Positions 20,801 through 52,733 of a DNA stretch of 64,000 nucleotides are shown piece by piece. Positions within the stretch are counted from its first letter, which is position 1. Every line of letters starts with the position of its first letter. Below the pieces are notes generated by a model. The model ran no database searches. It worked only from the letters and a program-made list of their open reading frames with translations, and was not told the DNA's origin. Where the stretch lies: positions 1 through 64,000 of the IMG/VR virus record IMGVR_UViG_3300044797_000034. One strand, 5' to 3'. Source of the DNA: a virus. The position numbers and the translations under genes were made by a program.

Positions 20801-20840
20801 TGTTTTTGTACCTTTTCTCTTTCGAGAGGTGAATGTAATT

Positions 20841-24633: not shown

Positions 24634-26715
24634 CTACTTCACTATTGCCGCTCTAGCAACAGGTCGATCTACAGTGCTTTGATATTTGCACCCAGGTTGA
24701 AACGGTCTAACCTCAGCTATGCCACATTTAGTCTTCCACTCACAAGGGGCACATGCTACTTTTTCACTCAGTGTATAGGCCAGTGTATCTTTGTAGTTGA
24801 GTGTTCTAGAAACGAATTCGTCCAGTGTATCTTTACCTAACAACCTGTAAACAGTTACGTGTCTAGTCTGACCTATACGAACATTTCGGTCAAATGACTG
24901 TCGATAAGTAGTTCGATCCCAAGGCAAGGAGTAGTAGATTGTATAGTTAGCCGCCGTTAAAGTAACTCCTATGCCGGAGGATACTTGACCTAAATAAATA
25001 CGGCAACCGGGGTTTGTCTGAAACTCTTTTTCAATAGAAGCAATCTTGTTTGTATTAGAGCCATCTACCCGCACGTATGTCCATTTATTCTCCTTGCATA
25101 CTGCCTCAAGGTCATCTAGTTCAGGTAGATAGGTAGCCCACACAATGAGCTTATTGGAAGAGTCTTCCTCAAGGATATTCTCAGCCAAGTCCTTGAAGAC
25201 TTCTAGTTTTGGATTTTCTACGTCCCGTAATATTTTTCTCGGTGGATAAGTAGGTTGAACCTTGCAATCCTTGGTGTACGGGTTTATCCCGCTATCTACA
25301 CAACCCTGTAAATATTCGCATCCGTTACAAATGGTTTTATCAGGTTCGATTATCAAGAATCCGCTAGTGATCTGTAGAAGTTTATTTACCCTAACTGCTC
25401 CGTGTGCAATTGAAAGAATTGTGTTATCGGTTGCATTATCCACCACAGGTAAGTGCCTAGTAAATGGAGATTCACTAGCGGACATTTCTTCTACTAATTG
25501 ATTGTAACGCACCTTCTGTTTTGGCTGAAGTGAAAATAGTACATCACTTACTACTACGGGAGGCAAGTCTAAACATTCAGATTTTTTCATACGACTTGCT
25601 ATCAAGTTTACCTTGGCATTTATCTCATGAAGATTTTTCCATCCAAGTATCAAATACTTGTTGTAAGGATCTTGTTCTGTATGATGTTGTTTGAACTGCC
25701 AAAACGGGCGTTTCTCTAGCCATGGATGGAGTATGCGTAAGAGAGAGTAGTACTTCAACGGATCATTGCCAGCAGTACCCGTTAGAATATACCTACGCGC
25801 AGCTTTAGTGGATAATTGAAGACAAGCCTTGGTTACCTCTGAGTCGTAAGTGCCTAATACGTGTCCTTCGTCGAAAACAACTACATCGTAATCAATTAAT
25901 GTGAATATATCCGATGGTGGCACCCCGCCTGTTTGAAGAGTTTTCATTGTCTTGTCGTACAGGGCAGGATTTGCTTTAGCTAGTGCAGTGAGCTTCCTTT
26001 TTAAGGCTTTATCTGACGCGGCACCGCCAACTTTCCAATCCTCTGGTAATACGTGGTTAACGGCCGACTTGTACTCAGATCGAGCAATACCGTACGTAGT
26101 TAGTACTACATCCGCAGCATTCGCCTCCTGTATCCTCTTATCCCTGTCACCATGTGTGAGATCAATACACGTCAGTTCTCCACCGCCATACTCTAATACC
26201 TGCCTCTCCCAGGTTGGGAGTACCACTCTCGGGCACACTACAAGGACTCTCTTCACACAGCCTATAGCCTTTAACCAACGCAGGAGTTCGATTATGACAC
26301 GGGTCTTGCCGGTACCCATTTCCCAGAGAAGTAGCATCCGGTAATAGGCGTACGCCTTAGCTAGCCCCATTCTCTGATGGGCGAACAATGGTGGTCCATG
26401 AAAAATATGATCCTTGGGTAATGGCAGGATTACCTCTTCCTTTGTTGCGTATTGGGCTTCAGCTTCGGCCCACAATGACCCTGTTATACGGGCGGCACGT
26501 ATGAAAGCTTCCGCGGAAGCGTCTGTCGGGGTGCTACCTACGGCAGTTAGGTCTTTTACAACCCAATCAACGAAGGGAAAATAGGCAGGGAAGGCCCACT
26601 TACCTTCTTTTTGTAGATAAGTGGCGCCCCAAACCTTGTCCCAAGGTGCTAACTGGTCGCTGGAAAGGGTCAGAATAGGTGTAGAACCTAGTACAGAACC
26701 GTTTAATACTGGCAT
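24634..26715 (-). CDS. SNF2-family helicase with two Cys4 modules
   Basis: 693-residue superfamily-2 translocase. Motif I is EMGTGKTR, motif Ia VVCPRVVLPTW, motif II FDEGH, motif III LTGTAG. The C-terminal RecA lobe shows QVSSGIGVTLTAA and the motif VI-like SFDRNVRIGQ. Two inserts share the exact spacing C-x2-C-x5-C-x11-C: C463/C466/C472/C484 and C655/C658/C664/C676. They look like paired metal sites (zinc or Fe-S), which I do not know from ordinary SNF2 proteins. Likely roles are branch migration, fork remodelling or transcription-linked functions. It is the first gene of its leftward block, divergent from portal across 30 bp. Confidence 0.88.
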   Translation of the reverse strand: MPVLNGSVLGSTPILTLSSDQLAPWDKVWGATYLQKEGKWAFPAYFPFVDWVVKDLTAVGSTPTDASAEAFIRAARITGSLWAEAEAQYATKEEVILPLPKDHIFHGPPLFAHQRMGLAKAYAYYRMLLLWEMGTGKTRVIIELLRWLKAIGCVKRVLVVCPRVVLPTWERQVLEYGGGELTCIDLTHGDRDKRIQEANAADVVLTTYGIARSEYKSAVNHVLPEDWKVGGAASDKALKRKLTALAKANPALYDKTMKTLQTGGVPPSDIFTLIDYDVVVFDEGHVLGTYDSEVTKACLQLSTKAARRYILTGTAGNDPLKYYSLLRILHPWLEKRPFWQFKQHHTEQDPYNKYLILGWKNLHEINAKVNLIASRMKKSECLDLPPVVVSDVLFSLQPKQKVRYNQLVEEMSASESPFTRHLPVVDNATDNTILSIAHGAVRVNKLLQITSGFLIIEPDKTICNGCEYLQGCVDSGINPYTKDCKVQPTYPPRKILRDVENPKLEVFKDLAENILEEDSSNKLIVWATYLPELDDLEAVCKENKWTYVRVDGSNTNKIASIEKEFQTNPGCRIYLGQVSSGIGVTLTAANYTIYYSLPWDRTTYRQSFDRNVRIGQTRHVTVYRLLGKDTLDEFVSRTLNYKDTLAYTLSEKVACAPCEWKTKCGIAEVRPFQPGCKYQSTVDRPVARAAIVK

Positions 26716-26745: not shown

Positions 26746-28464
26746 ATGAGTGGCGATCCTACGTTTTCAGATTTAGCGTTGAACAGCAAAGATGCTGCAC
26801 ACCCCAACCCTCTTTTCGATTTCCTAACTGGCTTCGTGCCACGAAAACTAAAGGATTTATTCAAGTGGGCAGAATATCTTGTGTTCAATTCTGCACAGGT
26901 ATATGCCGTTGTAAAGAAATTTGGAGAATTTCCAATAACTAAGATAGTTTACGAGTCTGCGGTACCAGGTGTTTTAGCAGTACATAGAAAAATTTTTGAG
27001 AAAAATCTAGGAGTCCTTAGCTTTTTGACCAAGGCCTCATTCGATAAGTTTATTTATGGCAATGGTTTTTACTCCATTTATACACCATTCAAGCGTTTTC
27101 TTGAGTGTAAAAGCTGTAAATCACGTAAGGACATTAACTATATAGACTATAAATTCAAAGTCAAGAGCCTTGAGTTTACATATACCTGTACGAACTGTAA
27201 AAAGCTCACTAAAGGTAGGATGGTTGATCTTAAGTTAAAGGACGCCAGTAAGCTCAGAATGATTCGCTGGGATCCAAAACTAATTGACATTGAACATAAC
27301 CCTATTACGGATGAGAGCGTCTACTACTACACAATTCCAAAGTCAATGAAAGAGCAGATTGATAAAGGGAACAAAGTCCTGATCAACTCAATGCCAAAGG
27401 GATTTTTGGAAGCGGTTAAGGAGAACAAGATTTTCCGTTTTGAAAAAGATGCCTTGTATCACATGAAGGTGCCCGGTCCGGCAGGGGTAGAAGCGCACTG
27501 GGGCTTCCCACCCATTACGTCGTCTATCAAACTGTTCCTATTTGCTGCGATTCTGCGAAAGGCAAATGAAGCTATCGCCCTGGAGCATATTGTTCCATTC
27601 CGCGTGTTATTTCCACAAATGAATAGTCCAAACGGCGACCCACTTACGACGATATCTTTGGCTAAATGGAGAACTGAACTCGAACATAATCTAAAACGGT
27701 GGCGACGTGACCCGTTGGCTATACAATTTGCCCCTGTACCATTAGGCGTAACGAATTTAGGCGGCGAGGGGCGTGCGCTGATGGTATCTGCTGAAATCAA
27801 GGACGCAGAGAGTAACATTGTCACCGCTATGGGTGTTCCAATGGAATTTATTACTGGGGGATTAGGGCAAACTCGTGGTGAAATTTCATTGCGCATGTTG
27901 GAAAATCAATTGCGATGCCACACTGAGGATTTGAACAAGTTATTACAGTGGATAGAAGATAAAGTTGCTCGTTATATGGGTTTTGAACCTGTGCCAGTAC
28001 ATCTATCTGATTTTAAGATGATAGACGATTCTGAGAAAAAGCAATTGGTCATGCAACTTTGGGCCCAAGGAAAAGTATCAGATTCGACAATAGCAGAGAT
28101 GTTTGAGCTTGACTTGGACAAGGAACGTGATTTAATACTTGAGAACGCAATTGCTCAAGCTAAGGCTCAGCAAAAGACTGAGGCTGAGATGAAGAAGATA
28201 CAGGGTTCGTTAGTGCAGCAAGTACAGCAACAAGCTTCTGCAACAGGGTTGGATTATAACGATCCGCAACAGGTAATTGCTGCCGCGGATCAAAAGGTAC
28301 AGGAGTTTATGGCGCTGGATCCAAATACAAGGAGATCACAATTAGACGGCCTGAAAACTGAAGATATCATCATGTTCAGCGTCGTAAAAGAGCGTATGGA
28401 GCAGGCGCAGCAAACACAAGAGGCAGAAGTGAAGCAACAAGTCCGACAAGGTCAAGGGCAATAA
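26746..28464 (+). CDS. portal protein
   Basis: 572 residues, the expected size for the dodecameric portal at the capsid vertex through which TerL packages DNA. The N-terminal wing includes a zinc-ribbon-like insert (CKSC, then CTNC about 23 residues on). The middle shows the portal-like stretch VPMEFITGGLGQTRGEISLR followed by a long helix, and the C-terminal third is Gln-rich and helical (crown/barrel). I assign portal from this layout and context rather than from a catalytic motif. There is no clear Shine-Dalgarno. It overlaps the next gene by 1 nt (TAATG). Confidence 0.78.
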   Translation: MSGDPTFSDLALNSKDAAHPNPLFDFLTGFVPRKLKDLFKWAEYLVFNSAQVYAVVKKFGEFPITKIVYESAVPGVLAVHRKIFEKNLGVLSFLTKASFDKFIYGNGFYSIYTPFKRFLECKSCKSRKDINYIDYKFKVKSLEFTYTCTNCKKLTKGRMVDLKLKDASKLRMIRWDPKLIDIEHNPITDESVYYYTIPKSMKEQIDKGNKVLINSMPKGFLEAVKENKIFRFEKDALYHMKVPGPAGVEAHWGFPPITSSIKLFLFAAILRKANEAIALEHIVPFRVLFPQMNSPNGDPLTTISLAKWRTELEHNLKRWRRDPLAIQFAPVPLGVTNLGGEGRALMVSAEIKDAESNIVTAMGVPMEFITGGLGQTRGEISLRMLENQLRCHTEDLNKLLQWIEDKVARYMGFEPVPVHLSDFKMIDDSEKKQLVMQLWAQGKVSDSTIAEMFELDLDKERDLILENAIAQAKAQQKTEAEMKKIQGSLVQQVQQQASATGLDYNDPQQVIAAADQKVQEFMALDPNTRRSQLDGLKTEDIIMFSVVKERMEQAQQTQEAEVKQQVRQGQGQ

Positions 28465-29156
28465 TGCAAACACTAGAAGAAAGATTATTACGTAAACGAG
28501 AGAATAACAGAAACTACAGGCTTAGGAATAAGGACAAACTTAAAGAGTCTTATCGCATGTCCAGGGACAAACACATCGCGCAAAAAGCTATATACCGTGA
28601 GACACACAGACTGGAGATAAAGGAATCGCAGCGCAAACACTATCTCAAAAATAGGGATGTTATACTTGAAAAAACCAAGGCAAAGCGTAAGGCTAACCCT
28701 GAAAAACTCAGGTTACAAAAAGCGGCCTATACAATCAGAGCACGTGTTAAAATAAGAAATCATACAATAGCGTTTTATTCTGTACCTGAAAATAAAATAA
28801 AACGTCTTGTGAGTAGTGCTCGGCGACGCGCTAAAGATAAGGTATTATCTTTTGATGCTTCGATTGAGGAATTTCTAATAGCCAGCGCCCCGACGCACTG
28901 TCCTATATGTGAAATCGCTATCGATTATACTTCAGGCAGAGGTACTGCCTGGGAGAATAAAAAAGATTCCCCTGCTATCGATCGCATTGACTCCTCATTA
29001 GGGTATATAGTGGGAAATGTAGCTATTACTTGTCTAGAGTGTAACACTATCAAATCTTGTGGTACAATTGAACGACACGAAGCTGTCATTGTCTACATGA
29101 AAAAACATCTTAAACGGTCACATCTCACACTAGTACCACAGGTTAACAATGGCTAA
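28464..29156 (+). CDS. HNH-type homing endonuclease
   Basis: 230 residues. A very basic N-terminal two-thirds holds several Tyr/Arg/Lys-rich helices (for example HRLEIKESQRKHYLKN) that probably lie along DNA. One C-terminal nuclease unit follows: CPIC, SPAIDRID, GY, Asn, then CLECN. It is wedged between portal and the next gene, sharing 1 nt with portal and 8 nt with the downstream gene, so an invasion that kept neighbour translation coupled is likely. It belongs to the same family as the genes at 607, 8578 and 18719. Confidence 0.83.
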   Translation: MQTLEERLLRKRENNRNYRLRNKDKLKESYRMSRDKHIAQKAIYRETHRLEIKESQRKHYLKNRDVILEKTKAKRKANPEKLRLQKAAYTIRARVKIRNHTIAFYSVPENKIKRLVSSARRRAKDKVLSFDASIEEFLIASAPTHCPICEIAIDYTSGRGTAWENKKDSPAIDRIDSSLGYIVGNVAITCLECNTIKSCGTIERHEAVIVYMKKHLKRSHLTLVPQVNNG

Positions 29157-30410: not shown

Positions 30411-30428
30411 AAAATCTCTAGATACCTA

Positions 30429-30600
30429 TGGGTGCATTGTAAAGAACGCCCGGCGATTCTAACGCCGTGACGGGTCACAGTGCACCCACAGAAATCCAAG
30501 TTGGAACGCATAACCGGGACAGGCAAATGCCCCGGTTATGCCTCCATAGATAGTCGCCCAGTTGGATAGCACACTCAAGTGCTAGGAAATCCAAACGGGG
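30429..30600. ncRNA. candidate structured RNA with three hairpins
   Basis: This gap of about 200 nt between two leftward genes has no open frame worth calling but holds three strong folds. First, TGGGTGCA (30429-30436) pairs with 30481-30488 and encloses a 5-bp stem with a 7-nt loop (CGGCG-ATTCTAA-CGCCG, 30451-30467) plus a short GTGA/TCAC stem, somewhat like a tRNA lacking normal D and T arms. Second, an 11-bp perfect stem joins 30508-30518 to 30531-30541. Third, CCCAGTTGGAT (30557-30567) pairs with 30589-30599 and contains AGCAC/GTGCT. An ATCCAA near 30494 could pair instead with the third hairpin. The strand is not certain; minus is likelier given the neighbours. Confidence 0.55.
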
Positions 30601-30611
30601 CCGATGACCAT

Positions 30612-31340
30612 TTATCCTGTTGCTTTCTCGTTGTTGTTAGCTTGCGGAATGTTGATACGATGTGCAATAGATGATGTTGATTGAAGCTTTTTCATCTCGT
30701 GTTCATTGCGCTTCCGGTCCTTACAAGGAGTGCATTGAACACGGATACGATAGTGATCAGGGCTGCCACTTATCTTAAGGTACTTCGCCACCCGCAAGAT
30801 TTCTCCAATGTTTACGTGAAAAACGCTTTCGCATTCACGGCACGCGCCACTGTAAACATGCGTAGCTAAGTAGGCTGCTGCTTCCCGCGTTCCCGCAGTA
30901 CGTACTTCCTTGCCCTTATCGTCCTTCTCCCATACCCCTCCAAGTGATTCCCACTTAATGAGAAACTCGTCAGGTTTTACAGGAAGATACTCCATGTACC
31001 CGATTCCGTACTGGCGATAACACGAACAGAGCACTCCGCCGACACCAGTGATCATACGAGAGTCACAGAGCATGCAGCGCTTCTCGCGCCACACCATAGC
31101 CTTCTCTATATCACCGTTTTTCTCGGCTTGTTCCGCCTTCTTCCAACGCCAGGCATTGTGTGCCTCTTGGCGATCGTGGAATTGGGCGGCTATTTCCTCA
31201 AGTTCTTCTTTTTCGAGGCCCAGCATATTACTGAGCATCTTCCAATGCCCTTGCTGTATACCACGGATATAACACAACACACTTATTCGACTACCGGCCT
31301 CCAAACTAGTGGCGGCCTGAGCGCTAACTTCACTTGACAT
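30612..31340 (-). CDS. cysteine-rich hypothetical protein
   Basis: 242 residues, unknown. It has three CxxC pairs: RCMLCD near residue 89, ACREC near 167 and QCTPC near 203, plus CSC in the middle, so one or two zinc sites are likely. A helical, Glu-rich N-terminal part precedes them. AGGAAGG lies 8 nt before the ATG. It is divergent from the RNA polymerase gene across 108 bp and might act in regulation or DNA binding; this is inference from the zinc motifs and position only. Confidence 0.68.
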   Translation of the reverse strand: MSSEVSAQAATSLEAGSRISVLCYIRGIQQGHWKMLSNMLGLEKEELEEIAAQFHDRQEAHNAWRWKKAEQAEKNGDIEKAMVWREKRCMLCDSRMITGVGGVLCSCYRQYGIGYMEYLPVKPDEFLIKWESLGGVWEKDDKGKEVRTAGTREAAAYLATHVYSGACRECESVFHVNIGEILRVAKYLKISGSPDHYRIRVQCTPCKDRKRNEHEMKKLQSTSSIAHRINIPQANNNEKATG

Positions 31341-31448
31341 TACGACACCTTCCTACAGAACAGTGTTAGTCGCGACAGCCGTAACAGCCGTATCACTAAA
31401 TATTCCTAACATTATCTTCTACCGAAAAATATTGCTATTATTTGCAAT

Positions 31449-34400
31449 ATGACTGGCGATCTTCGACCTGTCCTTACTACTGCGGCAAATATCCGTAAGG
31501 ACATACATACAAAAATAAAAGCAGCGCTGCACAATATTTTTCCGTTAGACCTGAAAGGTCGTACGCTGGAGCTAAAGGATGTTGCTGTTTTCCCACAAAA
31601 CTTTTCTCCAGATGAAGAGAAACACGCATTGCTAACAGGCGGTGGCCTACATGAGCCGGTTAAGGGCACACTTGTACTACGCGGTGGTGATGGAAAAATA
31701 ATTGACGAGGCCAGAAACTTTACGTTAATGAAGCTGCCGTTTTTTACCGATAGACACACGGTCATAGTGGACGGTAATGAATACCAGGTAGCTAACCAGT
31801 TGCGTCGTAAGCCGGGTATTTATACACAACGCTCCGCTAACGGCGAATTAAGTACCCTATTCAACCTTTCTAAGGGCGGTAGTTTCTATGTAACGATGGT
31901 GCCAGAAACCGGCAAGTTCAACTTAGAGTACGACAACACAAAGATTCCACTATACCCTATTCTACGTGCCCTAAGTGTTCCTCACGCAGATATAGCAAAA
32001 CACTGGGGTGCAGGTGTTGCCGATGAGAATAAGAACATCTCAGAGGTACAATCAACCCAGGCTATAAACAAGCTTTACAAAAAACTAGTACACCCGCACG
32101 TACAAAACTTGAGTGCGCCTATAGAAGACAAGATTAAGGCGATAGCCGACAAGTATGCGGCTACAGAAATAACAGGCGGTGTTACCGAACAGACTGTTGG
32201 AGCTCATCACTCAAAGGTTTCGCCGTCAGCATTACTTGATGCATCTAGGAAGCTTTTATCTGTGCATGAGGGTAAGTCAGAAATAGATGATGCAGATAGT
32301 CTTACGTTCAAGTCCTTTCATGCAGTAGATGATTTCTTGAAGGAACGACTTGAACTTTTTGCTCGTACATGGGGGCCTAAGACACGACTTAGATTCACAG
32401 GTAAAGACAAGATAAGAGATGCTCTCGCACCACAACCTTTTACTGAAAACATCAAACGATTTGTAACTACGTCTACACTTACGGCGGTTCCTACTGGTAT
32501 AAATCCAATAGAACTTCTTGACCACTCTGTAAAAGTTACGTCTCTTGGCGAAGGTGGCATTAGCTCAGATAGAGCCATTCCCTATGAATCACGATTAGTG
32601 CACAATTCCCATTATGGAGTTATTGATCCTATCCGTAGCCCTGACTCGTCACATGCTGGCGTAGACGTTCGTATTACAATCGCAGCTAAGCATGATGATC
32701 AAGGTAACCTCTATACCCCGGTTAAAAATCTAAAGACCGGTAAGACAGAATTCTTACCTGCCGGCGATCAACATAAGTACATCATCGCTTTTCCACACCA
32801 GGAAATGAAAGGTCAAGTAGACGCATTTGTTCACGGTAAGGTGGAAAAGATAGACGCTAAAAAAGTAGAACACCAATACGTGCACAATGCGCAGGCGTAC
32901 TCGCCCGCAACGTCTCTGATTCCATTTTTGCACAATATTCAGGGGAATCGTGCTATCATGGCGTCAAAGATGCAAACACAGGCGTTACCTCTCGTAGAAC
33001 GAGAGGCGCCGTTAGTACAGGTAAAATCACATCGTGGAAATGAAAGTTATGAAAAACTATATGCCAAATTGGTTGTTCCGACTGCTCCTTTTGATGGTGT
33101 TATCTCTCGTATTGAGGGTGGACGAATATATGTTTCGCCGACTGGAAAAGCGTCAACGACTCCTACCGAAGCGTTAAAGATTGCTTCTGATGACGTAGGC
33201 GTGCCATACCAAACAGACTTCCCATTTCCGTCTAAGACATTCTTGAATCACACGGTCTCGGTTAAAGTCGGGGATAAAGTAAAAGCGGGTCAGACGCTGG
33301 CCGGATCTAACTTCACTAAAGATGACACCCTCGCCCTAGGTAAAAACCTTCGTGTCGCGTATATGGCATACCACGGTTTGAATTCAAATGACGCCATTGT
33401 AATTAGTGAAGGCGCTGCCAAGAAGCTAACGTCTGAGCACGGGTACCGAGAGGTATTTCCGATTAACCCAAAAACAGAACTTAGCAAGGAGAAGCACCGA
33501 GTATATTACTCAAGTAAGTATGATCCCACACAGTACACACGCTTGGATGAACACGGTGTAATAAAGAAGGGTGAAAAAGTAAACCCACATGATCTCTTAG
33601 TTGCGGCTCTTACTAAGAGCGCTCCCTCAGGAGCTGACTTGATGTTAGGTAGGATATCTAAGGCGCTAACCCGTCCGTACAAAGACATGGCGCTGACTTG
33701 GGAACATAGTTTTCCTGGCGAAGTAGTAGAAGTTGTGCGTACTCCTAATCAGATTGCGTTGCTGATAAAAACAAATGAGCCTATGCAGATTGGAGATAAG
33801 CTAGCCGCACGTTACGCTAACAAGGGTGTAGTAGCAAAGATAATTCCCGATCATGAGATGGTACAGGATGAATCGGGTGCACCTATAGATGTGGTTATGA
33901 CATCAGCCGGTATTACGAGCCGTATTAACCCTGGTCAGTTAGTAGAATCAGCACTTGGTAAGGTAGCTGAGAAGACAGGTAAGCCTATTCTAGTAGACAA
34001 TGCTGATCCACATGACGCCGTAGAATATGCGTCTAAGATGCTTAAGGATCACGGGCTAAAAGACAAAGAAGTTCTTTACGACCCCGTTAACAAACGCAGC
34101 ATTACTGGTCCCGACGGTAAGGGCGTATTCGTAGGACGTAGTTACATTCTCAAGTTGTTTAAAAGTACAGATACAAACTTTTCAGCTCACGGGATATCAG
34201 GATATGATTTGAATGAGCAGCCATTAAAGCACGGCGGTGAGGAAACACCAAAGGGCATTGCTAAGATGGAGTTCGATGCTCTAATAGCACATAATGCTCG
34301 TAACGTGTTGAAGGAATCTAGTACAATACGTTCGCAGAAAAATGAAGAGTTTTGGCGTGCACTGCAGTTAGGTCACCCACTACCTGCCAGCAAACCGTCG

Positions 34401-35846
34401 TTTGTATGGAACAAATTCTTAGCTCTACTTGAGGGTGCAGGCGTAAAGGTGGATAAGACTGGTAGCAAGATCCGTTTACTACCTATGACTGACAAGGACA
34501 TTATTGGTAAGTCTTCTGGTGTAATAGAAAACAACAAAACCATAGTCGCTAAGAATTTACAACCTGAACGCGGTGGTTTATTTGATGCAAATGCTACTGG
34601 CGGTCCGCAAGGTACTAAGTTCTCACACATACCACTGTCAGAGTCTTTGCCCAATCCTGTATTCGAAGAACCTATACGCCGCTTACTAGGACTGACCGGG
34701 CCACAGTTTGATAAGTTAGTTAAGGAACACGGTGGTGCACATTTTCACAAGGAGCTCTCTAAGATAAACATAGACGAGCGGTTAGGTGAGTTACACACTG
34801 AGCTTTCTACAGCTAAGGGTGCTGATATAAACAGCAAGGTAAAGCAGATAAAGTATCTGATGGCATTAAAAGCTGAGGGACTACGTCCAGAGGACGCTTA
34901 CATACTCAACAATGTACCTGTTGTACCGCCGGTATTCAGACCGATTCTGCCTATGGTTCACGACCCTAAGCAATTGATGGTATCTGATGCTAACAAGCTA
35001 TACATTCACTTAATGGACGCGAACCATACGCTGAAAACTACTTTACTTCCATCTGACATGGCTGCTAATAGAGAGCATCTTTACAATGCCGTAGGGGCCT
35101 TATTTGGTACGCATGATGTGGCTGATGATGAATTACGTGGACAAAAAGTAAAAGGCTTTTTGTCTTCTATATCTGGTGTAACTTCTCCTAAGTCAGGTTT
35201 CTTTCAGAAGAAAATCATGCGTAAAACCATGGATATTTCAGGCCGTGGTACGATTGTACCTGATGTAAACATATCTATGGACCAGGTAGGCATACCTGAA
35301 GAAATGCTATGGAAGATGTACGAACCGTTCTTGGTATCACGGCTTGTAAAGACAGGCTACCCTGCAATCCAGGCTAAAGAAATGGTCAAGGACCGCGTAC
35401 CGGCAGCTAAAACAGCTCTCTTAATCGAGTGTAAGGAACGCCCGGTTTACATTAACCGTGCTCCGACTTTACATAGATGGTCAATCGTTGGAGGTTACCC
35501 TATTCCAGTAGAAGGCAAGACTCTTAGGATCTCGCCTCTTATAGAAAAAGGAATGAACGCCGACTATGACGGCGACGCCCTACAAATACACGCCCCTGTA
35601 ACAGCGGCTGCAGTACGTGACGTACGTAACATGTTGCCGTCTAATCTGTTGTTACAAGACCAAAAACGTAACAGTCTTACGTCATTCCCTCAGCATGAGG
35701 CTATTCTAGGGGTGGCTCACGCATCTAACGCTAAAGCAACAGGCCCCGAGAAAACGTTCAAAACTACAGAAGAAATGACTGCGGCATACCGCCGAGGCGA
35801 GCTTAAGTTGTCGGATTCTGTAAAGATAGATCCAGGGCACAAGTAA
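31449..35846 (+). CDS. fused RNA polymerase beta / N-terminal beta-prime subunit
   Basis: 1465 residues of cellular-type multisubunit RNA polymerase. Residues about 1-990 follow the beta subunit: RKPGIYT, GNRAIMASKMQTQALPL near 500, a SNDAIVISEG stretch, GDKLAARYANKGV at 782-794 (K784 and K792 match the active-site lysines) and INPGQLVESALG. From about 1050 the chain continues as beta-prime: HIPLSESLPNP, VVPPVFRPI, MDISGRGTIVPD near 1261, NRAPTLHRW and the catalytic loop NADYDGD at 1370-1376, whose three Asp bind magnesium. It stops before the bridge helix; the remainder is encoded at 37631. No beta-prime N-terminal zinc ribbon is seen, and no alpha subunit is present in the window. It is the first gene of the long rightward virion block, with no Shine-Dalgarno. 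Confidence 0.93.
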   Translation: MTGDLRPVLTTAANIRKDIHTKIKAALHNIFPLDLKGRTLELKDVAVFPQNFSPDEEKHALLTGGGLHEPVKGTLVLRGGDGKIIDEARNFTLMKLPFFTDRHTVIVDGNEYQVANQLRRKPGIYTQRSANGELSTLFNLSKGGSFYVTMVPETGKFNLEYDNTKIPLYPILRALSVPHADIAKHWGAGVADENKNISEVQSTQAINKLYKKLVHPHVQNLSAPIEDKIKAIADKYAATEITGGVTEQTVGAHHSKVSPSALLDASRKLLSVHEGKSEIDDADSLTFKSFHAVDDFLKERLELFARTWGPKTRLRFTGKDKIRDALAPQPFTENIKRFVTTSTLTAVPTGINPIELLDHSVKVTSLGEGGISSDRAIPYESRLVHNSHYGVIDPIRSPDSSHAGVDVRITIAAKHDDQGNLYTPVKNLKTGKTEFLPAGDQHKYIIAFPHQEMKGQVDAFVHGKVEKIDAKKVEHQYVHNAQAYSPATSLIPFLHNIQGNRAIMASKMQTQALPLVEREAPLVQVKSHRGNESYEKLYAKLVVPTAPFDGVISRIEGGRIYVSPTGKASTTPTEALKIASDDVGVPYQTDFPFPSKTFLNHTVSVKVGDKVKAGQTLAGSNFTKDDTLALGKNLRVAYMAYHGLNSNDAIVISEGAAKKLTSEHGYREVFPINPKTELSKEKHRVYYSSKYDPTQYTRLDEHGVIKKGEKVNPHDLLVAALTKSAPSGADLMLGRISKALTRPYKDMALTWEHSFPGEVVEVVRTPNQIALLIKTNEPMQIGDKLAARYANKGVVAKIIPDHEMVQDESGAPIDVVMTSAGITSRINPGQLVESALGKVAEKTGKPILVDNADPHDAVEYASKMLKDHGLKDKEVLYDPVNKRSITGPDGKGVFVGRSYILKLFKSTDTNFSAHGISGYDLNEQPLKHGGEETPKGIAKMEFDALIAHNARNVLKESSTIRSQKNEEFWRALQLGHPLPASKPSFVWNKFLALLEGAGVKVDKTGSKIRLLPMTDKDIIGKSSGVIENNKTIVAKNLQPERGGLFDANATGGPQGTKFSHIPLSESLPNPVFEEPIRRLLGLTGPQFDKLVKEHGGAHFHKELSKINIDERLGELHTELSTAKGADINSKVKQIKYLMALKAEGLRPEDAYILNNVPVVPPVFRPILPMVHDPKQLMVSDANKLYIHLMDANHTLKTTLLPSDMAANREHLYNAVGALFGTHDVADDELRGQKVKGFLSSISGVTSPKSGFFQKKIMRKTMDISGRGTIVPDVNISMDQVGIPEEMLWKMYEPFLVSRLVKTGYPAIQAKEMVKDRVPAAKTALLIECKERPVYINRAPTLHRWSIVGGYPIPVEGKTLRISPLIEKGMNADYDGDALQIHAPVTAAAVRDVRNMLPSNLLLQDQKRNSLTSFPQHEAILGVAHASNAKATGPEKTFKTTEEMTAAYRRGELKLSDSVKIDPGHK

Positions 35847-35872
35847 TTAAGGCTTATCCTTAACCTAAGCAG

Positions 35873-36595
35873 ATGAGTTCCAAAGAAGCATTACATCCGT
35901 ATCTGCAAACCATAATGGGTAACCTACCGCCGACTATAGGTGAGGGTGAGGGTTCGCCTGATATGGAGCCACCGCCTGAGCCAGTACCGCCGGGTATGAC
36001 TACTGAGCAGCCTATGGAGGGTGAGCAGGCTGCGACGACTGATATGCCACCCCAACAGCCTGGTATGGGTGGGCAGCTTCCGCCAGAGGCTCAGATGTTA
36101 GCGGCTATGGGTCAGACACCTGGTATGCCTGATCCAAATGATCCTCTACGCAATACCAAAGATGAAGGTGTGTATAGCGTAGATGAAATGGGTATTCTTG
36201 AGATACTCAGTAAAATATTAACTGGCAAGTATGCCATTTTGATAATGTACTATCACTACGGTGCTACGATGCTGTCTTTATCACGAGATAGCATTTACAA
36301 ACACTTTTTAGAACACGCAAAAGAGGAACGTGAATCTGCTTACATGGTGGCTAAGCTGATTGTTGCTATGGGAGGGCAAGCTGCGCCTAAGGTTGGTCCA
36401 GTACGTCCTGCGGTTGATATGGCTTCTATGTTTTCAGAACTGCTGAAGGCGGAACAGAAGGTACAAGGCTTTTGGCGAGAATTGAATATGGCAGCTGGAC
36501 AGAACTTAGGGTTGCAGGCATTCGCGCAGGATCAATGTCAGCTAGACTTTCAACACGCAAACGATTTGCGACGGTGGATTAGAAGCGAATGTTAA
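35873..36595 (+). CDS. ferritin-like four-helix protein
   Basis: 240 residues. Residues 1-95 are Pro/Gly/Met-rich and probably disordered. From about 105 come helices resembling bacterioferritin/Dps-type diiron proteins: KYAILIMYYHYG, HFLEHAKEERESA (Glu and His in E-x2-H register), a third helix with KAEQKVQGFWREL, and DFQHANDL. Compared with the family, the helix-1 metal Glu appears as Lys (LTGKYA) and the helix-4 Glu as Asp, so ferroxidase activity is doubtful. It lies between the two polymerase genes; a TTAAGG/CCTTAA hairpin (35847-35863) separates it from the first. The role may be structural or redox. Confidence 0.7.
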   Translation: MSSKEALHPYLQTIMGNLPPTIGEGEGSPDMEPPPEPVPPGMTTEQPMEGEQAATTDMPPQQPGMGGQLPPEAQMLAAMGQTPGMPDPNDPLRNTKDEGVYSVDEMGILEILSKILTGKYAILIMYYHYGATMLSLSRDSIYKHFLEHAKEERESAYMVAKLIVAMGGQAAPKVGPVRPAVDMASMFSELLKAEQKVQGFWRELNMAAGQNLGLQAFAQDQCQLDFQHANDLRRWIRSEC

Positions 36596-37236
36596 AGGTA
36601 GCTCTATTTGGATTAGATAAGACACCAAAGTTAGACGCAGCACATGCAGAACTAATTAGGAGTCATGCGTCACCAGAACACGTAGCCGCAATCAATGCTT
36701 TGCCTACAGATGCAAAGGGCATTGCTGCTTATCCATTTTCTGATATCGAAGGGCATCACACTTTAGTATTCTACAGTCCTACTAAAGGCAATTTAGAAGT
36801 TCCTGTACCAAAAGATTTAATGCTTCACATGTTTCCTGAACTTAAAGATGAAAACACAGTACTATATCAGGAGGGACATGAAGGGCTTAACAGAGCTACT
36901 AATTACCTGTCAGAAAAAAATAAAGTTAAAGCAAAAACAGCTTCAGATTTCAATTATATGTTTGAAAACATAATCAAGATGGCTGCGGCGGACGCGCGTT
37001 GTCAATACGGCATTGGACAAGAGGAGCAGAATCCTAACCCCGTGGAACAGCTTACTCATGCTATGCAAAACATGGGTGATGATGCTAAGCCATTCTGGCT
37101 GTATGATTCTAAGAAAAATGATCCGAGTCGGTCAGATACGTCTTGGGGTCCGGCTACACCACTGAACTCTGGCGATGCAGCTGATAGAAATACTCCGTTT
37201 TCAGCAGGCTTGAACATTGTATTTGGAGGCGTGTAA
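36589..37236 (+). CDS. hypothetical virion-block protein
   Basis: 215 residues, no domain recognised. It has a mixed alpha/beta N-terminus with a His-rich patch (EGHHTLVFY), then a helical segment containing the recurrent hydrophobic-x-Lys-x-Ala motif (IIKMAAAD), and a Gly/Asn-rich tail ending IVFGGV. It overlaps the ferritin-like gene by 7 nt and the next gene by 1 nt (TAATG), so coupled expression with the RNA polymerase genes is likely. Confidence 0.7.
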   Translation: MLKVALFGLDKTPKLDAAHAELIRSHASPEHVAAINALPTDAKGIAAYPFSDIEGHHTLVFYSPTKGNLEVPVPKDLMLHMFPELKDENTVLYQEGHEGLNRATNYLSEKNKVKAKTASDFNYMFENIIKMAAADARCQYGIGQEEQNPNPVEQLTHAMQNMGDDAKPFWLYDSKKNDPSRSDTSWGPATPLNSGDAADRNTPFSAGLNIVFGGV

Positions 37237-37631
37237 TGTCGCAGCAAAAATTGATAAACGTGTTTGCTCAATTTTATCCAGAAACTTCAAAGTATGGAAA
37301 GCTGTTGAAAACTGCTGTAGACTTCGGTGTAGTCGCCAAACACATCGTAACGCCTCCGGCTAACCTTCTTCAGGCAATGGGCGCTGGCCTTCGTGGTGCC
37401 GGTAATGCCGCTCATGCAGTTACATCTTCCATGCCAGATCACGGGCAACTAGCACGTATGCTGGCGTCTCTACCATCAGCCGTTGCTGGTGGCGCTAAGA
37501 GCTTCTATGATGCTGGTGGCGTTGGTGCTGGCGCACTGACAGGACTAGGTGCTTCAGCACTATACGGTGGCAAAAAACTATACGATGAATACGCATCACC
37601 TGCGGGGTACTACAAGCCGGGCGGATACTAA
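37236..37631 (+). CDS. small glycine/alanine-rich protein
   Basis: 131 residues. The N-terminus carries the virion motif (LLKTAVDF). Residues 45-110 are rich in Gly and Ala with small-residue spacing (GAGLRGAGNAAHA; GVGAGALTGLGASALYGG), as in glycine-zipper or membrane-active phage internal proteins, but no long hydrophobic helix is clear. The C-terminus is Tyr/Pro/Gly-rich. Its start overlaps the previous stop and its stop overlaps the next ATG (TAATG in both cases). Function unknown. Confidence 0.7.
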   Translation: MSQQKLINVFAQFYPETSKYGKLLKTAVDFGVVAKHIVTPPANLLQAMGAGLRGAGNAAHAVTSSMPDHGQLARMLASLPSAVAGGAKSFYDAGGVGAGALTGLGASALYGGKKLYDEYASPAGYYKPGGY

Positions 37632-39439
37632 TGGCATCTGTTGGTCACCTGCTGGTAAATGAGGTCTTGCCGGATAAGTACAAGATCACTGGACCAGTAA
37701 CAGCTAAGAGTTTACATGATTCAATGGTCAGCCTGGCCAAGGAAGACCCGCAGCTATACGCCCATGTTGTACACAAGCTAAAGCAGCGTGGTGATGAGAT
37801 AGCAACACTCGAAGGTATATCAGTAGGCCTTGATGACATTAGACCTGAGTATGCCGCCCGCGATGCAATTCTAAACCCTGTCATCAAAGCGTTCAACGCT
37901 ACGAAGAATCCAAAAGAGCAAGTGAAGCTTGTTGTAGATGCGCAGAAAAAATTACTTGATTACACAAAGCAACACAAAGGCTCCATGACCGAAATGGCGG
38001 CTACAGGGGCTCGTGGGAGCTTTCCTCAATTGATGAAGATGATAGGTACGCCACTGGCTTCACAATTACCTGGTAAAGACGTAACGCCATGGCTTGTTAC
38101 AAAAAGCTATTCAGAGGGTTTGAGTCCCGCTGATTACTGGGTGATGGCCCCTGAATCCCGTGCAAACAGCATTGCAACTACGGTATCTACTGCTGAGCCG
38201 GGTGAAATGGCGAAGGTGTTAGTTGCTAACATGACTAGTCAGGTAATCACACAGCATGATTGTGGTACGCACAATGGTGTACGTATGATGATAGATGACC
38301 CACACAGTATTGATCGCTATCTTGCTAGTGAACAACATGGGCAGGCACACAACACGTTGGTTACGCCTGAACTCATAAATATCCTAAAGGCTAAAAAAGC
38401 AGAATGGTTACTTGTGCGAAGTCCTATGACCTGCGTTGATCCTCACGGTGTTTGTCAGATGTGTTATGGATTAAATGAAAAGGGTCATTTACACGCAATA
38501 GGGATTAACGTAGGTACGCGCAGTGCTCAGGCAATGGCAGAACCACTTACACAGATGGCCCTCGGATCTAAGCACGCAATTCTTACTGTTAAAGAAAAAA
38601 CACTTACACCGACAGGTTTTAAAGGTGTACGTCAGATTTTGGAAATACCGAAGATCTTTCAAGGTGAAGCGGTACTAGCCCCTGCCGCTGACACAGTGTC
38701 TGAAATACGTAGTGCACCACAGGGCGGTAGTTACGTAAAACTGAAGCAACATAAAAAAGAACTCTACGTTAATCCAGCCTTAGATTTACACGTTAAGGTA
38801 GGTGATCATGTTGAAGCCGGTGATGCTATGACAAATGGCTTGCCACGACCAGATGAAATCACGCAACACAAAGGTATTGGCGCTGGCAGACAATATTTCG
38901 TAAACGCGCTGCATGACATGTACAATGGTTCGGGGGTAAACCTTGATAAGCGGCATTACGAACTTTTAGCTAAATCAGCTCTTAACCACGTACAGTTCGT
39001 AGATTCAGATCCTAACCATCCTGAATTTCTCAGAGGCGATGTTGTAGCATACAATACTTTTGCGGATGCTTATAGAAAGGATGCCGAAACTGTCTCTACT
39101 GACAAAGCTGAGGGCCACCGTCTTGCAGCAGACGTTCATCACCACACTGTAGGTACGTTGATTACCCCGTCTCTAGTAAAGGAACTGAAGTCCCACGGCG
39201 TAAAGGAAGTTTCAGTTTCTAGAGTCGCTCCCAATGTAACATTTGTACACAGATCCTTCGTGATGAATCCTTTACTAGATCACGATTGGTTAGGACGTCT
39301 AGCACATAGATTTTTACGAAACTCTATCCAACAGGCTGCACATACACGAGAAGAGAGCAATTTACACGGTACACACCCTGTGCCGGCTTATGCTTTTGGT
39401 GCGGAAATGCAAGAAGGTTTAGATGGCGGAACCTACTAA
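37631..39439 (+). CDS. RNA polymerase beta-prime C-terminal subunit
   Basis: 602 residues that continue beta-prime from where the 31449 gene stops. It opens with GHLLVNEVLPDKY (cellular GRVLFN-ILP), then ATLEGISVGLDDI. TGARGSFPQLMKMIG and SYSEGLSPADYW lie in the bridge-helix region. Four zinc ligands are kept: DCGTHNG and TCVDPHGVCQMCYG. The trigger loop reads AEPLTQMALGSKH, keeping the position of catalytic His936 of E. coli while the preceding Arg933 is Gly. A beta-prime C-terminal VRQILEI stretch follows. It would need to pair with the 1465-residue subunit. It overlaps the next gene by 17 nt. Confidence 0.92.
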   Translation: MASVGHLLVNEVLPDKYKITGPVTAKSLHDSMVSLAKEDPQLYAHVVHKLKQRGDEIATLEGISVGLDDIRPEYAARDAILNPVIKAFNATKNPKEQVKLVVDAQKKLLDYTKQHKGSMTEMAATGARGSFPQLMKMIGTPLASQLPGKDVTPWLVTKSYSEGLSPADYWVMAPESRANSIATTVSTAEPGEMAKVLVANMTSQVITQHDCGTHNGVRMMIDDPHSIDRYLASEQHGQAHNTLVTPELINILKAKKAEWLLVRSPMTCVDPHGVCQMCYGLNEKGHLHAIGINVGTRSAQAMAEPLTQMALGSKHAILTVKEKTLTPTGFKGVRQILEIPKIFQGEAVLAPAADTVSEIRSAPQGGSYVKLKQHKKELYVNPALDLHVKVGDHVEAGDAMTNGLPRPDEITQHKGIGAGRQYFVNALHDMYNGSGVNLDKRHYELLAKSALNHVQFVDSDPNHPEFLRGDVVAYNTFADAYRKDAETVSTDKAEGHRLAADVHHHTVGTLITPSLVKELKSHGVKEVSVSRVAPNVTFVHRSFVMNPLLDHDWLGRLAHRFLRNSIQQAAHTREESNLHGTHPVPAYAFGAEMQEGLDGGTY

Positions 39440-41674: not shown

Positions 41675-44209
41675 ATGACAATGCAGGGCTTACCAGTTTC
41701 GAACTCTCCGCGAACACAAGGTTTTCAAGCTCAAAACCAGGATGCTCAGGTTGAGGAACTGTTCAATGATGGTTTCACGCAACGTGCTTACGATACATTT
41801 GGTAAGGCGTATCCTGATCTTGTAGCTGAGATTGTAACGCTGAAAATAATTGACTCAGATCCAGATGATGGTACGGCTTGTGGCGTATTCATACTAGACC
41901 ACGGACAGGAAATTTTCTATGTCCCTGTAGTCTTTGGTAATAATGAAATAAAACCGATTGATGTATTTTATTCAAAGCGTTTAGACCGATATCTTCCACT
42001 TTCAAGTGAGTGGCTAAACGAGGCTACTAAGGGTGCAATTTCTGAATTAGGTCATGCAGTACAGACGCCTAAGACACTGCAGACGGACGTGGACATCCGT
42101 AACTTGGTAGTGCCTCCCACGACAGGCCGTTACTCATACGCGTCTGCTAACGACGAAGATCCGGCTTTTATTCAAATGCTTGAGAAAGCGCCTGCCGCTG
42201 TAAAGCAAGGTACGGTTATTTTTTTCGCCAAGCACGCGGCTCTCTTTAAGAAGGCAGTAGAAGTATTCGGTAAGGAGAGTCTTAGCCGTGCACTGACGAT
42301 AAAGAAGGCATCAATTGAAGATACTTCTAGCGTAAAGGAAGAAAAGGCTAAACACGAAAATTACAAAAGTCCTCGCGAAGGAAATGTAATTACTGCTGAC
42401 AAGGCGACTAAGCCTGCTAAATTAAAAGAGATGTTCGGTGAGGAAGCCGGTGTAGCGTATTCAACTATACGCACACAAGGTTTTTACGCTAAGGATTACC
42501 GTAAAGAAACCAAAGCTGTAATATCTACGCCTGAACGAATGATTAATCTTGAGGAACCGTCTACCTCAGGTCTTTACCGTGTTTATATGGCGGATGGTTC
42601 CTCTGAGAAGGCACTTGTAATCAAGGACGTAGTTCGTCTAGGTGATGGCTACGGTAGTCATAAGTTTGAATTACGTAATCAAACAAATGATCATCCGCAT
42701 TCGGCGCCTGGTTACAAGGATGACGTATTTCCTCCGTCACGGGCAGCAGCACATAAGAAATTCTGGTTAGTGATATTTAAAGATGGCCGTTACTGTGAAA
42801 CAAAATCTTTGCAGGCTGAACCGGTTGTGTCTAGCCACGCGGCATGTGAGGCTTTTATGAAAGATTCAGAACCTAAGAGTGGCGATGAAGGCTTTTTTGT
42901 CTCTACTACTGGTCTTTCACTGCGAGCTACTGACGTAGGATATCTTCATGAGGTACGTAGCTCCAATGGACGTACATCTATGGTAATGCACGGTACTAAA
43001 GTAGTACGCAATGACGATGTGCGCGGTAAAACGATACTTTTTCCTGCGGATCAAGACGCTGTTTTTCTACCTGGAAATTACCGATTCATCAAAGTATCAA
43101 AGCGTTTAGATCCGGCTGATATCTGCATTGATCCTAAGGGGGTCTACGCACACGTGGAGGATAAGCTGAAGAAGGAGGGTGCGGTCAAACTTCAGGTTAC
43201 CTATAAGATGGACGGTTACTATGTTGGTCGTGGTGGACCGTCACTATCTAAGGCGGCAGCTCTTAAACAAGTAGCCGAAAAGTATGACCTCACATTAGGT
43301 CATTCTGAGCATATTCTCAAACTTGCCGAAGAAGATAAGGTCAAGAATGTATGGGCGCTTACCGCTAAAACCATCGCTAAATTGGCTGCTGATAGCGCCC
43401 CTCCCAAGAAGGACAAAGCTCCTGCCCAACCTGCCCAACAAGACCCTGCGGCTCAAGGTGGAATGGATCCTTCGATGGGCGGCGATCCAGCGGCTATGGG
43501 TATGGGAATGCCTGCTGGTCCTCCGCAGCCTAGCTCTATAGAACTAGCGGCGGCTGAAATGCTACAGCAACTACAATCGCAGCAAGATTCTCTTGCTCAG
43601 CAAATGCAATTACTTCAGCAAGTAGCTGCACGCGCTCAACAAATAGAAGCTTCAGGTGCGGGCGTAATGGCTGCTCCGTTAGCGGCGCAAATGATTGCCC
43701 CTCCGCCTCAGGCTGGTGCTCCTGCTCCTGCAGCTCCACCTGACCCTGCCGCACAACCACAGGATCCATCACAAGGGCAAATAGACCCTAATACGGGCAT
43801 GCCTATGCAACAGCAACAACCTATGGGACGTATGAATCCTGGATCGAAAGACTTAACGCCTGATAATATGGCGCAGTCTATAAATCCACAGTTCATGCAA
43901 GACGCCGCTGCCCTATCCGATGCTCAAGTATTTGATGCGGCTTCAGTAGCATCTCTCGCTCAAAACAGCGATACAATGGAGCTAGCTCAAGCCTATACCC
44001 CTAAAATTGAATCAGCCCTAGACTCCATTTGTCGTCTATTGACGCTCTTCAACATCAAAGAAGATGTCATCAAAGAACAGTTTGGCCAAGAATCCTACAG
44101 TATGACCGTTCAAAAACTACGCGATCTTGTTAAAGGAATGGGGGATACCCTTCTTAAGGTCGAACAAATGGGACAGCACCGGGCACCCGAGTATGCTGAT
44201 GCACGGTAA
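41675..44209 (+). CDS. large hypothetical virion protein with Pro/Gln/Ala linker
   Basis: 844 residues, unknown. Residues about 1-590 look folded (alpha/beta, no catalytic motif). About 590-730 is low-complexity Pro/Gln/Ala/Met, interrupted by a Gln-rich helix (QQLQSQQDSLAQQMQLLQQV), and the last 110 residues are helical. The virion motif occurs several times (LKLAEED, IAKLAAD, FAKHAA, FKKAVE). The size and position before other particle genes suggest a major structural or internal protein. The ATG follows a terminator and a TATACT by about 17 nt; AGGG is the only ribosome-site candidate. Confidence 0.78.
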   Translation: MTMQGLPVSNSPRTQGFQAQNQDAQVEELFNDGFTQRAYDTFGKAYPDLVAEIVTLKIIDSDPDDGTACGVFILDHGQEIFYVPVVFGNNEIKPIDVFYSKRLDRYLPLSSEWLNEATKGAISELGHAVQTPKTLQTDVDIRNLVVPPTTGRYSYASANDEDPAFIQMLEKAPAAVKQGTVIFFAKHAALFKKAVEVFGKESLSRALTIKKASIEDTSSVKEEKAKHENYKSPREGNVITADKATKPAKLKEMFGEEAGVAYSTIRTQGFYAKDYRKETKAVISTPERMINLEEPSTSGLYRVYMADGSSEKALVIKDVVRLGDGYGSHKFELRNQTNDHPHSAPGYKDDVFPPSRAAAHKKFWLVIFKDGRYCETKSLQAEPVVSSHAACEAFMKDSEPKSGDEGFFVSTTGLSLRATDVGYLHEVRSSNGRTSMVMHGTKVVRNDDVRGKTILFPADQDAVFLPGNYRFIKVSKRLDPADICIDPKGVYAHVEDKLKKEGAVKLQVTYKMDGYYVGRGGPSLSKAAALKQVAEKYDLTLGHSEHILKLAEEDKVKNVWALTAKTIAKLAADSAPPKKDKAPAQPAQQDPAAQGGMDPSMGGDPAAMGMGMPAGPPQPSSIELAAAEMLQQLQSQQDSLAQQMQLLQQVAARAQQIEASGAGVMAAPLAAQMIAPPPQAGAPAPAAPPDPAAQPQDPSQGQIDPNTGMPMQQQQPMGRMNPGSKDLTPDNMAQSINPQFMQDAAALSDAQVFDAASVASLAQNSDTMELAQAYTPKIESALDSICRLLTLFNIKEDVIKEQFGQESYSMTVQKLRDLVKGMGDTLLKVEQMGQHRAPEYADAR

Positions 44210-46713: not shown

Positions 46714-47574
46714 ATGAATTACTTTCGACAGTTGTTTACGATTGGTCGCATGGAAAGCATGATGGCTAAGCATGCTGGCGAAGGTGCGGGTTTATCCAGC
46801 GTAAGGGAGTTAAAACAAACCTTATGGACAGGTATGAAAGCGGCTTCGCGCGGTGAACTAGTAGACTTAGCTAAGATGGCATTGAAGGTAGCCAACGAAG
46901 TCAGTATTTGTAACCAGACTAAGCTAGCTAATGCTATAGACCGTGATTTACTAGCTGTGAGTTTTGCTACTGCTAAAACAGTGGATGACGTCATATGCAA
47001 ACAAGCTTATAACCATGAAATATCTTCGGCGGACGCTGAAAAGTTACTCAAGTTAAATGCCGAAAGCGCTATTGATGATCTACTAGATATAGCTAAATTA
47101 GCTGCGCCAGACTGGTTAACCCACCCTGCTACTCTTGGTGCAATGGGCGGAGGACTGATAGGTGCTGGTGTCGGAGCATGGACAGACCCTGAACAAAATA
47201 GAGGGCGAGGCGCGTTGTTTGGTGGCGTAGGCGGTGCAGCATTAGGCGGTTTAGGTGGGTTAGCCTACAAACACTTCAAGGACTTAGCGATTGACAATGC
47301 GGCTGCCGCAGAAAAGATACTGGCAAATGAGACTGCTGAAAAAATAGAGCAGGCTCGCGCAGGTTATACAAATATGGGCATCAAACCTGAAACGATGCCA
47401 CAAGAAGAACTGGCGTTTTCAGCTAAAGACTTAATGCCTAATATATCAGGGGAAAGCGCGTATAAACCTAAGTCACACTCGGGCGCGGCTTCTAGCGTAG
47501 AGCCCCCTTCGCACTTTGGTGCGAACCCGTCTAAACCTGAAGTTTATAAGGCACCTAAGCATCCTGGTCAATAA
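46714..47574 (+). CDS. hypothetical virion protein with glycine zipper
   Basis: 287 residues from the ATG at 46714; a GTG at 46705 overlapping the previous gene is less likely. The N-terminal half is helical with several Lys-x-Ala motifs (LAKMALK, CKQAYN, IAKLAAP). Residues about 145-190 form a Gly/Ala-rich glycine-zipper stretch (GAMGGGLIGAGVGAW; GGVGGAALGGLGGLAY). The tail is Pro/Ser-rich. The stop overlaps the protease start (TAATG). It could be an internal protein later processed by that protease; not shown. Confidence 0.7.
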   Translation: MNYFRQLFTIGRMESMMAKHAGEGAGLSSVRELKQTLWTGMKAASRGELVDLAKMALKVANEVSICNQTKLANAIDRDLLAVSFATAKTVDDVICKQAYNHEISSADAEKLLKLNAESAIDDLLDIAKLAAPDWLTHPATLGAMGGGLIGAGVGAWTDPEQNRGRGALFGGVGGAALGGLGGLAYKHFKDLAIDNAAAAEKILANETAEKIEQARAGYTNMGIKPETMPQEELAFSAKDLMPNISGESAYKPKSHSGAASSVEPPSHFGANPSKPEVYKAPKHPGQ

Positions 47575-52640: not shown

Positions 52641-52681
52641 GAAGAGACATCCGAACATCATCTTTCGGAGTTGACAAGAAG

Positions 52682-52715
52682 AAACCCATGTTGTACACTA
52701 CAACATGGGTTTTTT
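52682..52715 (+). terminator. intrinsic terminator after capsid gene
   Basis: A 14-bp perfect stem (82-95 paired with 99-112 of this 52.6-kb block) with a 3-nt CAC loop and a run of six T. It is the clearest terminator in the window and separates the capsid transcript from the homing endonuclease and neck genes. Confidence 0.92.
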
Positions 52716-52733
52716 CATTGGTGTTGGTTTACA

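Follow-up and report, generated by a model that had tools for sequence, protein, structure and literature searches.

A beta-beta' fusion RNA polymerase encoded between the portal and capsid genes of a phage, and its possible packaging with a sigma factor

Introduction

Why does a phage carry, in the midst of the genes for its particle, an RNA polymerase (RNAP) in which beta and the first half of beta' are joined in one chain, and could such an enzyme be packed into the particle and delivered to the cell along with the DNA? The locus that raises this question lies in 64 kb of a linear, 64,246-base virus record from IMG/VR (hereafter the window, which is the whole stretch of DNA analysed). The phage multisubunit RNAPs described so far either occur in two copies and lack sigma factors or consist of one strongly diverged chain. 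The lineage described here keeps a nearly bacterial core together with sigma factors, and this core appears to be borne by the particle, although packaging is inferred for all members other than Salmonella phage Arash.

Core subunits and catalytic residues

Two genes on the plus strand make up the enzyme, one of 1465 residues (31449-35846) and one of 602 residues (37631-39439). The first-pass annotation had read them as beta fused to the N-terminal part of beta' and as a separate C-terminal part (beta'C), and the open reading frames, the Pfam domains and the alignment to E. coli all agree with that reading. The fusion carries Rpb2_2, Rpb2_3, Rpb2_6, Rpb1_1 and Rpb1_2 in sequence, and aligns as beta up to about residue 1000 and as beta' up to about 560. 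The 602-residue protein has an Rpb1_5 match (PF04998, 1e-20), starts at about E. coli beta' 569 and reaches near the end of beta'. At the junction, near residue 1000 (about nucleotide 34446), beta ends in ...LLEGAGVKVDKTG and beta' starts with SKIRLLPMTDKDI without a linker; a linker or insertion at this point was considered and is ruled out by the alignment. A chance match can be excluded because tblastn homologues span 99% of the fusion, at 33-34% identity in four isolated phages (Arash and Vibrio phages D69, D148 and D181) and at 72% in a 191-kb IMG/VR contig. In this contig, beta'C is 75% identical and both genes are intact; the Arash homologues of the fusion and of beta'C are 34% and 30% identical, respectively.

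The catalytic loop, zinc cysteines and trigger-loop histidine that had been recognised from the letters alone could all be located by alignment to E. coli. The lysines of the beta catalytic barrel, K784 and K792 (E. coli beta K1065 and K1073), fall in the aligned segment GDKLAARYANKG (33798-33824, plus strand), and the beta' catalytic loop NADYDGD (fusion residues 1370-1376) lies at 35556-35576 on the same strand. A DxDGD loop on the beta' barrel and two lysines on the beta barrel are among the features that define a bacterial-type core, and both are present. The Zn2 site of beta'C (C211, C268, C275 and C278), the bridge helix and the trigger-loop histidine (H315) are present as well; the bridge helix and trigger loop have diverged, and the R933 of the trigger loop is not kept (G in the window's beta'C). 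All clade rows inspected in the alignment lack another feature of bacterial-type cores, the N-terminal zinc ribbon of beta' (E. coli C70-C88), and the bacterial inserts are missing from the window's RNAP. AlphaFold models of fusion residues 270-1465 and of beta'C reached a mean pLDDT of 79 and 83 (82.7), respectively. In fold searches, from which no active-site distances were obtained, the fusion model resembled bacterial beta (Z 34.8 over 649 residues) and the beta'C model resembled S. aureus beta' (Z 31.6 over 448 residues).

Copy number was low throughout the relatives: by Pfam, a single beta DPBB match was found per record in 4 near-complete relatives, and a single beta'C gene per record in 11. 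No alpha subunit (PF01193), which as a dimer also belongs to bacterial-type cores, was detected in 7 near-complete relatives, with the control positive in 13 of 14. As one part of the joint explanation that we favour below, and judging from sequence, we think it probable that the two genes encode a complete core of a bacterial-type, sigma-dependent RNAP, for which no alpha was found; its activity and its pairing with sigma are inferred.

Gene order and packaging

It had been proposed that the RNAP stands at the head of the virion block. The genes are inside that block, but between portal and capsid and not at its very head. Reading through the window, a sigma factor gene is followed by a gene for an SNF2-type helicase (24634-26715, minus strand; PF00176, 3e-21) that adjoins the portal gene and has homologues in 53 loci, and by the gene for the portal protein, a homologue of Arash Gp204 (26746-28464, plus strand; phmmer 9e-100) with homologues in 92 loci. 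The fusion is next, then three small genes and beta'C, followed by homologues of the Arash virion proteins Gp218 (41675-44209) and Gp222 (47574-49556, a probable head maturation protease), a homologue of the Arash major capsid protein (MCP) Gp226 (51720-52640), all on the plus strand, and a gene for a sheath-like protein starting at 56918. The small genes between the RNAP genes, also on the plus strand, encode a ferritin-like protein (35873-36595; PF00210, 9e-10) found in 11 other loci and two uncharacterised proteins (36589-37236 and 37236-37631) kept in the closest relative only. Arash retains the order portal, RNAP, beta'C, Gp218, Gp222 and MCP, and the position of RNAP between portal and MCP is common to the window, the 191-kb relative and Arash. 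In YerA41, Rhizobium phage RHph_TM21B and IME392, RNAP subunit genes are found in replication gene neighbourhoods.

The possibility of packaging, also raised by the first-pass annotation, has support from published mass spectrometry, which detects the Arash homologues in virions; for the window's phage, for which there is no proteomics, packaging can only be inferred from homology, at no more than 34% and 30% identity, and from synteny. According to the Arash paper (PMC10585845), virions from a sucrose gradient were analysed by LC-MS with a search against a phage-only database. The most-detected virion protein there is Gp206, the homologue of the fusion (128 unique peptides, 3516 spectra), and both it and Gp216, the beta'C homologue (40 and 1210), are among the five most-detected; the sigma factor Gp10 has 24 and 467, the portal protein 32 and 877, and MCP 30 and 1333. 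Calculated from these counts, spectra per residue are 2.31 for Gp206, 2.00 for Gp216 and 2.00 for Gp10. Other enzymes detected there include DNA primase, DNA ligase and helicase Gp197, each with 2 unique peptides; RNA ligase Gp143 (14) and ribonucleotide reductase (RNR) Gp27 (11) are higher. These counts are crude, because some entries have 2 unique peptides yet hundreds of spectra. Since both RNAP proteins and a sigma factor are packed in virions of a cultured relative, it is probable that this virus brings a transcription apparatus of its own into the cell.

Sigma factors and transcription scheme

The window's sigma-70 family factor, 'sigma-A' (20829-21683, plus strand; PF04542 4e-8, PF04545 weak), is conserved and matches the Gp196 type of Arash (1.5e-12), which is not the type detected in Arash virions. 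Arash has two sigma factors, Gp10 of 234 aa, which was detected in the virion, and Gp196 of 345 aa, which is absent from the virion list (PMC10585845). Both are widely kept: all 12 near-complete relatives have a Gp10-type gene, and homology or Pfam identifies a Gp196-type or other region-2 sigma gene in 11 of the 12. The Gp10-type gene sits in a virion module, gp6-gp15, that is syntenic between Arash and the 191-kb relative. No Gp10-type sigma is found in the window's 64-kb record. In the 191-kb relative such a gene lies upstream of that for the terminase large subunit (TerL), at a distance of about 19 kb, and it would fall outside the window's record because TerL (9051-10667, plus strand; phrog_675, 9e-51; homologue of Arash Gp1) is just 9 kb from the end.

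A strand-biased motif accompanies these genes in part of the lineage. The presumed early genes of Arash are on the minus strand, as are all 18 exact copies of TGGTATAAG, most of them just upstream of genes; with up to one mismatch there are 46 copies (about 18 expected), 40 of them on the minus strand. A -35 box is lacking, there is a weak TGTA downstream, and an apparent plus-strand motif in Arash turned out to reflect mainly copies of the early motif that lie in divergent gaps and were read from the other strand. Across seven Arash-side loci, 36 of 37 copies of GGTATAAG are on the minus strand, with about 5 copies expected. The Arash early motif is absent from the Vibrio D69 and D181 loci, and a search for promoter motifs in the 191-kb relative and the window gave nothing convincing. 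The window has 2 motif copies, both on the minus strand, one of which (GGTATAAG, 606-613) lies just upstream of an ORF at 296-598; with 2.3 copies expected by chance, this is weak evidence.

We favour, with some confidence, a scheme with one packaged and injected core and two sigma factors, in which a Gp10-type holoenzyme acts early and the second sigma later. RNAP would be made late, alongside the head proteins, and the core packed into the particle with the Gp10-type phage sigma, as the published mass spectrometry shows for the Arash homologues and as we infer for the window's phage. The holoenzyme would then be injected with the DNA and begin on the early genes with no wait for host RNAP, and a second sigma (20829-21683), made in the cell, would turn the same core to later genes; injection, early use, the pairing of this sigma with the core and the switch are all inferred. 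What the genomes themselves establish is the completeness of the core, its single copy, the synteny and the two conserved sigma genes. More generally, the idea that these phages pack and inject a ready sigma holoenzyme, whose core is afterwards redirected by a second sigma, is put forward only tentatively, as sigma-core pairing is inferred. If true, a one-core, two-sigma scheme would stand in place of the phiKZ-like two-core scheme.

It is also conceivable, though unlikely, that the core is packaged while the phage sigmas act on host RNAP, leaving the phage core to find promoters alone or with another factor. A non-sigma factor is used by the non-virion RNAP of AR9, and in jumbo phages that lack an RNAP the sigma factors act with the host enzyme (PMC7598289). 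However, in the Arash data the Gp10 sigma is itself in the particle, in amounts close to those of the core, and the clamp-helix region of beta', which binds sigma region 2, can still be recognised in the phage clade in a shortened form and is far more degraded in AR9.

We are about as doubtful of a non-virion enzyme, which would transcribe middle and late genes only while host RNAP served the early genes, its presence in Arash particles being carry-over. The Arash authors themselves allow that highly expressed enzymes may merely persist in the preparation (PMC10585845), and each genome has a single core, as opposed to the separate virion and non-virion enzymes of phiKZ. In addition, host RNAP might read TGGTATAAG, because this strand-biased motif resembles an extended -10 (host TGnTATAAT), a point that also tells against the scheme we favour. 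The motif, however, ends in G where sigma-70 wants T at -7 (for the role of T-7, see PMC7598289). Carry-over would also have to account for the top rank of Gp206 by unique peptides as against the 2 each of primase, ligase and helicase Gp197 (though not all other enzymes were so low), for the near equality per residue of the subunits and sigma Gp10 in the same data, and for the location of the RNAP genes in the portal-capsid block.

Chain architecture and phylogeny of the lineage

A single-sequence search of IMG/VR with the fusion gave no match, its patterns being too specific, so that alignments were required; with these, 101 stretches were confirmed and 80 loci retained. The fusion had been called unusual, a view that does not hold within its own lineage, where the two-chain design occurs in at least 41 of the 80 loci (9 of the 41 with inserts of more than 250 aa) as well as in Arash and D69. 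A single chain of 2027-2057 aa (about 2030) is found in 5 loci, a three-piece form with a second cut near residue 1092 in 17, a fusion ending near residue 1092 in a further 8, and an interruption near residue 500 in 1; the remaining loci run off the contig end. Chain boundaries have been rearranged into one, two or three chains and the enzyme has not been lost.

A maximum-likelihood tree, built by a quick method from 33 rows of the lineage, eight bacteria and other phage RNAPs, groups the 33 rows together with 100% SH-aLRT, apart from cellular RNAPs and with a stem roughly 1 change per site long. All other members are sister to those with a single chain, and the three-piece form falls within the Arash side; a minimum of four changes suffices for the group labels together. 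The positions of YerA41 and AR9 are unreliable owing to their long branches. A phylogeny placing the genes as a recent host fragment would have refuted the phage-enzyme reading, and this outcome is rejected, because the clade stands apart from cells on a long stem. Recent acquisition of host rpoBC, or a decaying and inactive fragment, has little beyond the bacterial type of the sequence features to recommend it and is scarcely credible given the separate, fully supported clade, a relative in which both genes, 72-75% identical, are intact, and conserved catalytic residues.

Comparison with known enzymes

The kind of enzyme and the Arash proteomics are already known (PMC10585845). Arash ('Arashvirus', OQ632216; Gp206 and Gp216) and Vibrio D69, D148 and D181 have the same fusion and beta'C, the same portal-RNAP-capsid order and two sigma types. 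They differ from the window in sequence (30-34% identity) and in the intervening genes; a helicase, Gp217, follows beta'C in Arash and is absent from the window, and the beta part is interrupted by a homing-endonuclease insertion in D181 and D148. Gp206 is named 'beta' in the Arash paper, the available part of which does not mention the fusion or the two-sigma arrangement (PMC10585845). A single packaged core with two sigmas, one of them packaged, appears undescribed in the searchable literature, and so does a lineage-wide fusion architecture with one- and three-chain variants. Because some members can be cultured (Arash on the laboratory Salmonella strain ATCC 14028, and the Vibrio phages), holoenzyme injection and the history of subunit fusion and splitting are directly testable.

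The mReC phages (Weinheimer and Aylward 2020, PMC7481178) are like the window in being tailed, in their alignable beta and beta', in forming a clade apart from cells, in having RNAP genes near virion genes and in their IMG/VR source. Their selection demanded NADxDGD and a minimum of 800 aa for each subunit, criteria that would exclude Arash (AADYDGD) and a beta'C of 602 aa. The MCPs of mReC phages match PF07068, a family without a match in 19 records searched, although control genomes had none either; the window's MCP is without a Pfam match. The window's TerL matches PF03237 only weakly and below the cut-off (20.7 against 22 bits), and PF05876 better. Fusions, splits, sigma factors and packaging are not described in the part of the mReC paper available to us (PMC7481178).

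In phiKZ and AR9, as in the window, a multisubunit RNAP lacks alpha and beta' is also cut after the catalytic barrel, and one of the two RNAP versions is packaged and injected. The phiKZ layout was said to differ from that of the window, and it does, with two cores of 4-5 chains and no sigma (PMC7598289, PMC7824862). Unlike the window, these phages have beta in 2-3 chains, no sigma (PMC7824862) and no beta-beta' fusion. With a single core instead of two paralogous ones, and with sigma genes present, the window's lineage meets neither of the two defining features of the phiKZ type. The virion RNAPs of crAss-like phages and P23-45 resemble the enzyme proposed here in being packaged, injected and of the double-barrel class, but are single, highly diverged chains, that of P23-45 being fused to the tape measure protein (PMC10770324).

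A beta' split point shared with other phages was also considered. The cut lies in the same region and not in the same place, because the number of residues left after DGD differs, at 87-95 in the clade versus 128 in YerA41, 55 in IME392 and 161 in L147. Among cellular enzymes, Helicobacter has a beta-beta' fusion, and cyanobacteria and plastids have an rpoC1-rpoC2 split. Each of these has either the junction or a split in the same general region, whereas the window has both together, and its split is upstream of the cyanobacterial and plastid gamma/beta' split. A gamma subunit was among the database matches.

The RNA polymerase (RNAP) core of this phage lineage, which in the window is a beta-beta'N fusion with a separate beta'C, is naturally one beta-beta' chain of 2027-2057 aa at five loci (L041, L044, L045, L054, and L057), on phage genomes reaching 184 kb. 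More distant fused RNAPs, one of them a single chain of ~2028 aa, are found on contigs binned as bacteria (L147, L155, L156, and L157), and possibly represent other phage lineages.

Within the fusion of relatives, additional domains were identified. The 1930-aa fusion at L098:9350-15142 holds an inorganic pyrophosphatase domain (PF18823, 5e-30) inserted in its beta part, and LAGLIDADG endonuclease domains lie within inserts of ~300-500 aa, at differing positions, in the fusion ORFs of L030, L033, L058, and L069; the latter inserts are probably inteins. Vibrio phage D181 (L005:11527-12477) and locus L092 (11530-12481) share an interruption of the beta part at the same site (query residues 496/504). 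The D181 interruption is a stretch with a homing endonuclease, and another Vibrio phage, D69, has the same RNAP gene without it, and we interpret the interruption in both loci as probably a self-splicing intron.

In Salmonella phage Arash, gp217 (L003:31151-32569), encoding an SNF2-type helicase, immediately follows beta'C, whereas its homologue in the 191-kb IMG/VR relative is placed elsewhere (30417-31877, minus strand). Gp217 is abundant in Arash virions, with 38 unique peptides in the published proteomics (PMC10585845).

In the window itself, a ferritin-like protein gene (35873-36595), with homologues at 11 other loci, lies between the genes for the RNAP fusion and beta'C. Four HNH/homing-endonuclease genes are also present (607-1572, 18719-19600, 28464-29156, and 52671-54347), one directly following the portal gene and another the capsid gene.

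Four isolate-genome contigs (L144, L145, L172, and L173) hold the lineage's fusion and beta'C; L144 and L145 come from assemblies of Desulfovibrio piger and Desulfovibrio sp. An276. This is a hint that the hosts may be Desulfovibrio, or that the phage can persist in a carrier state.
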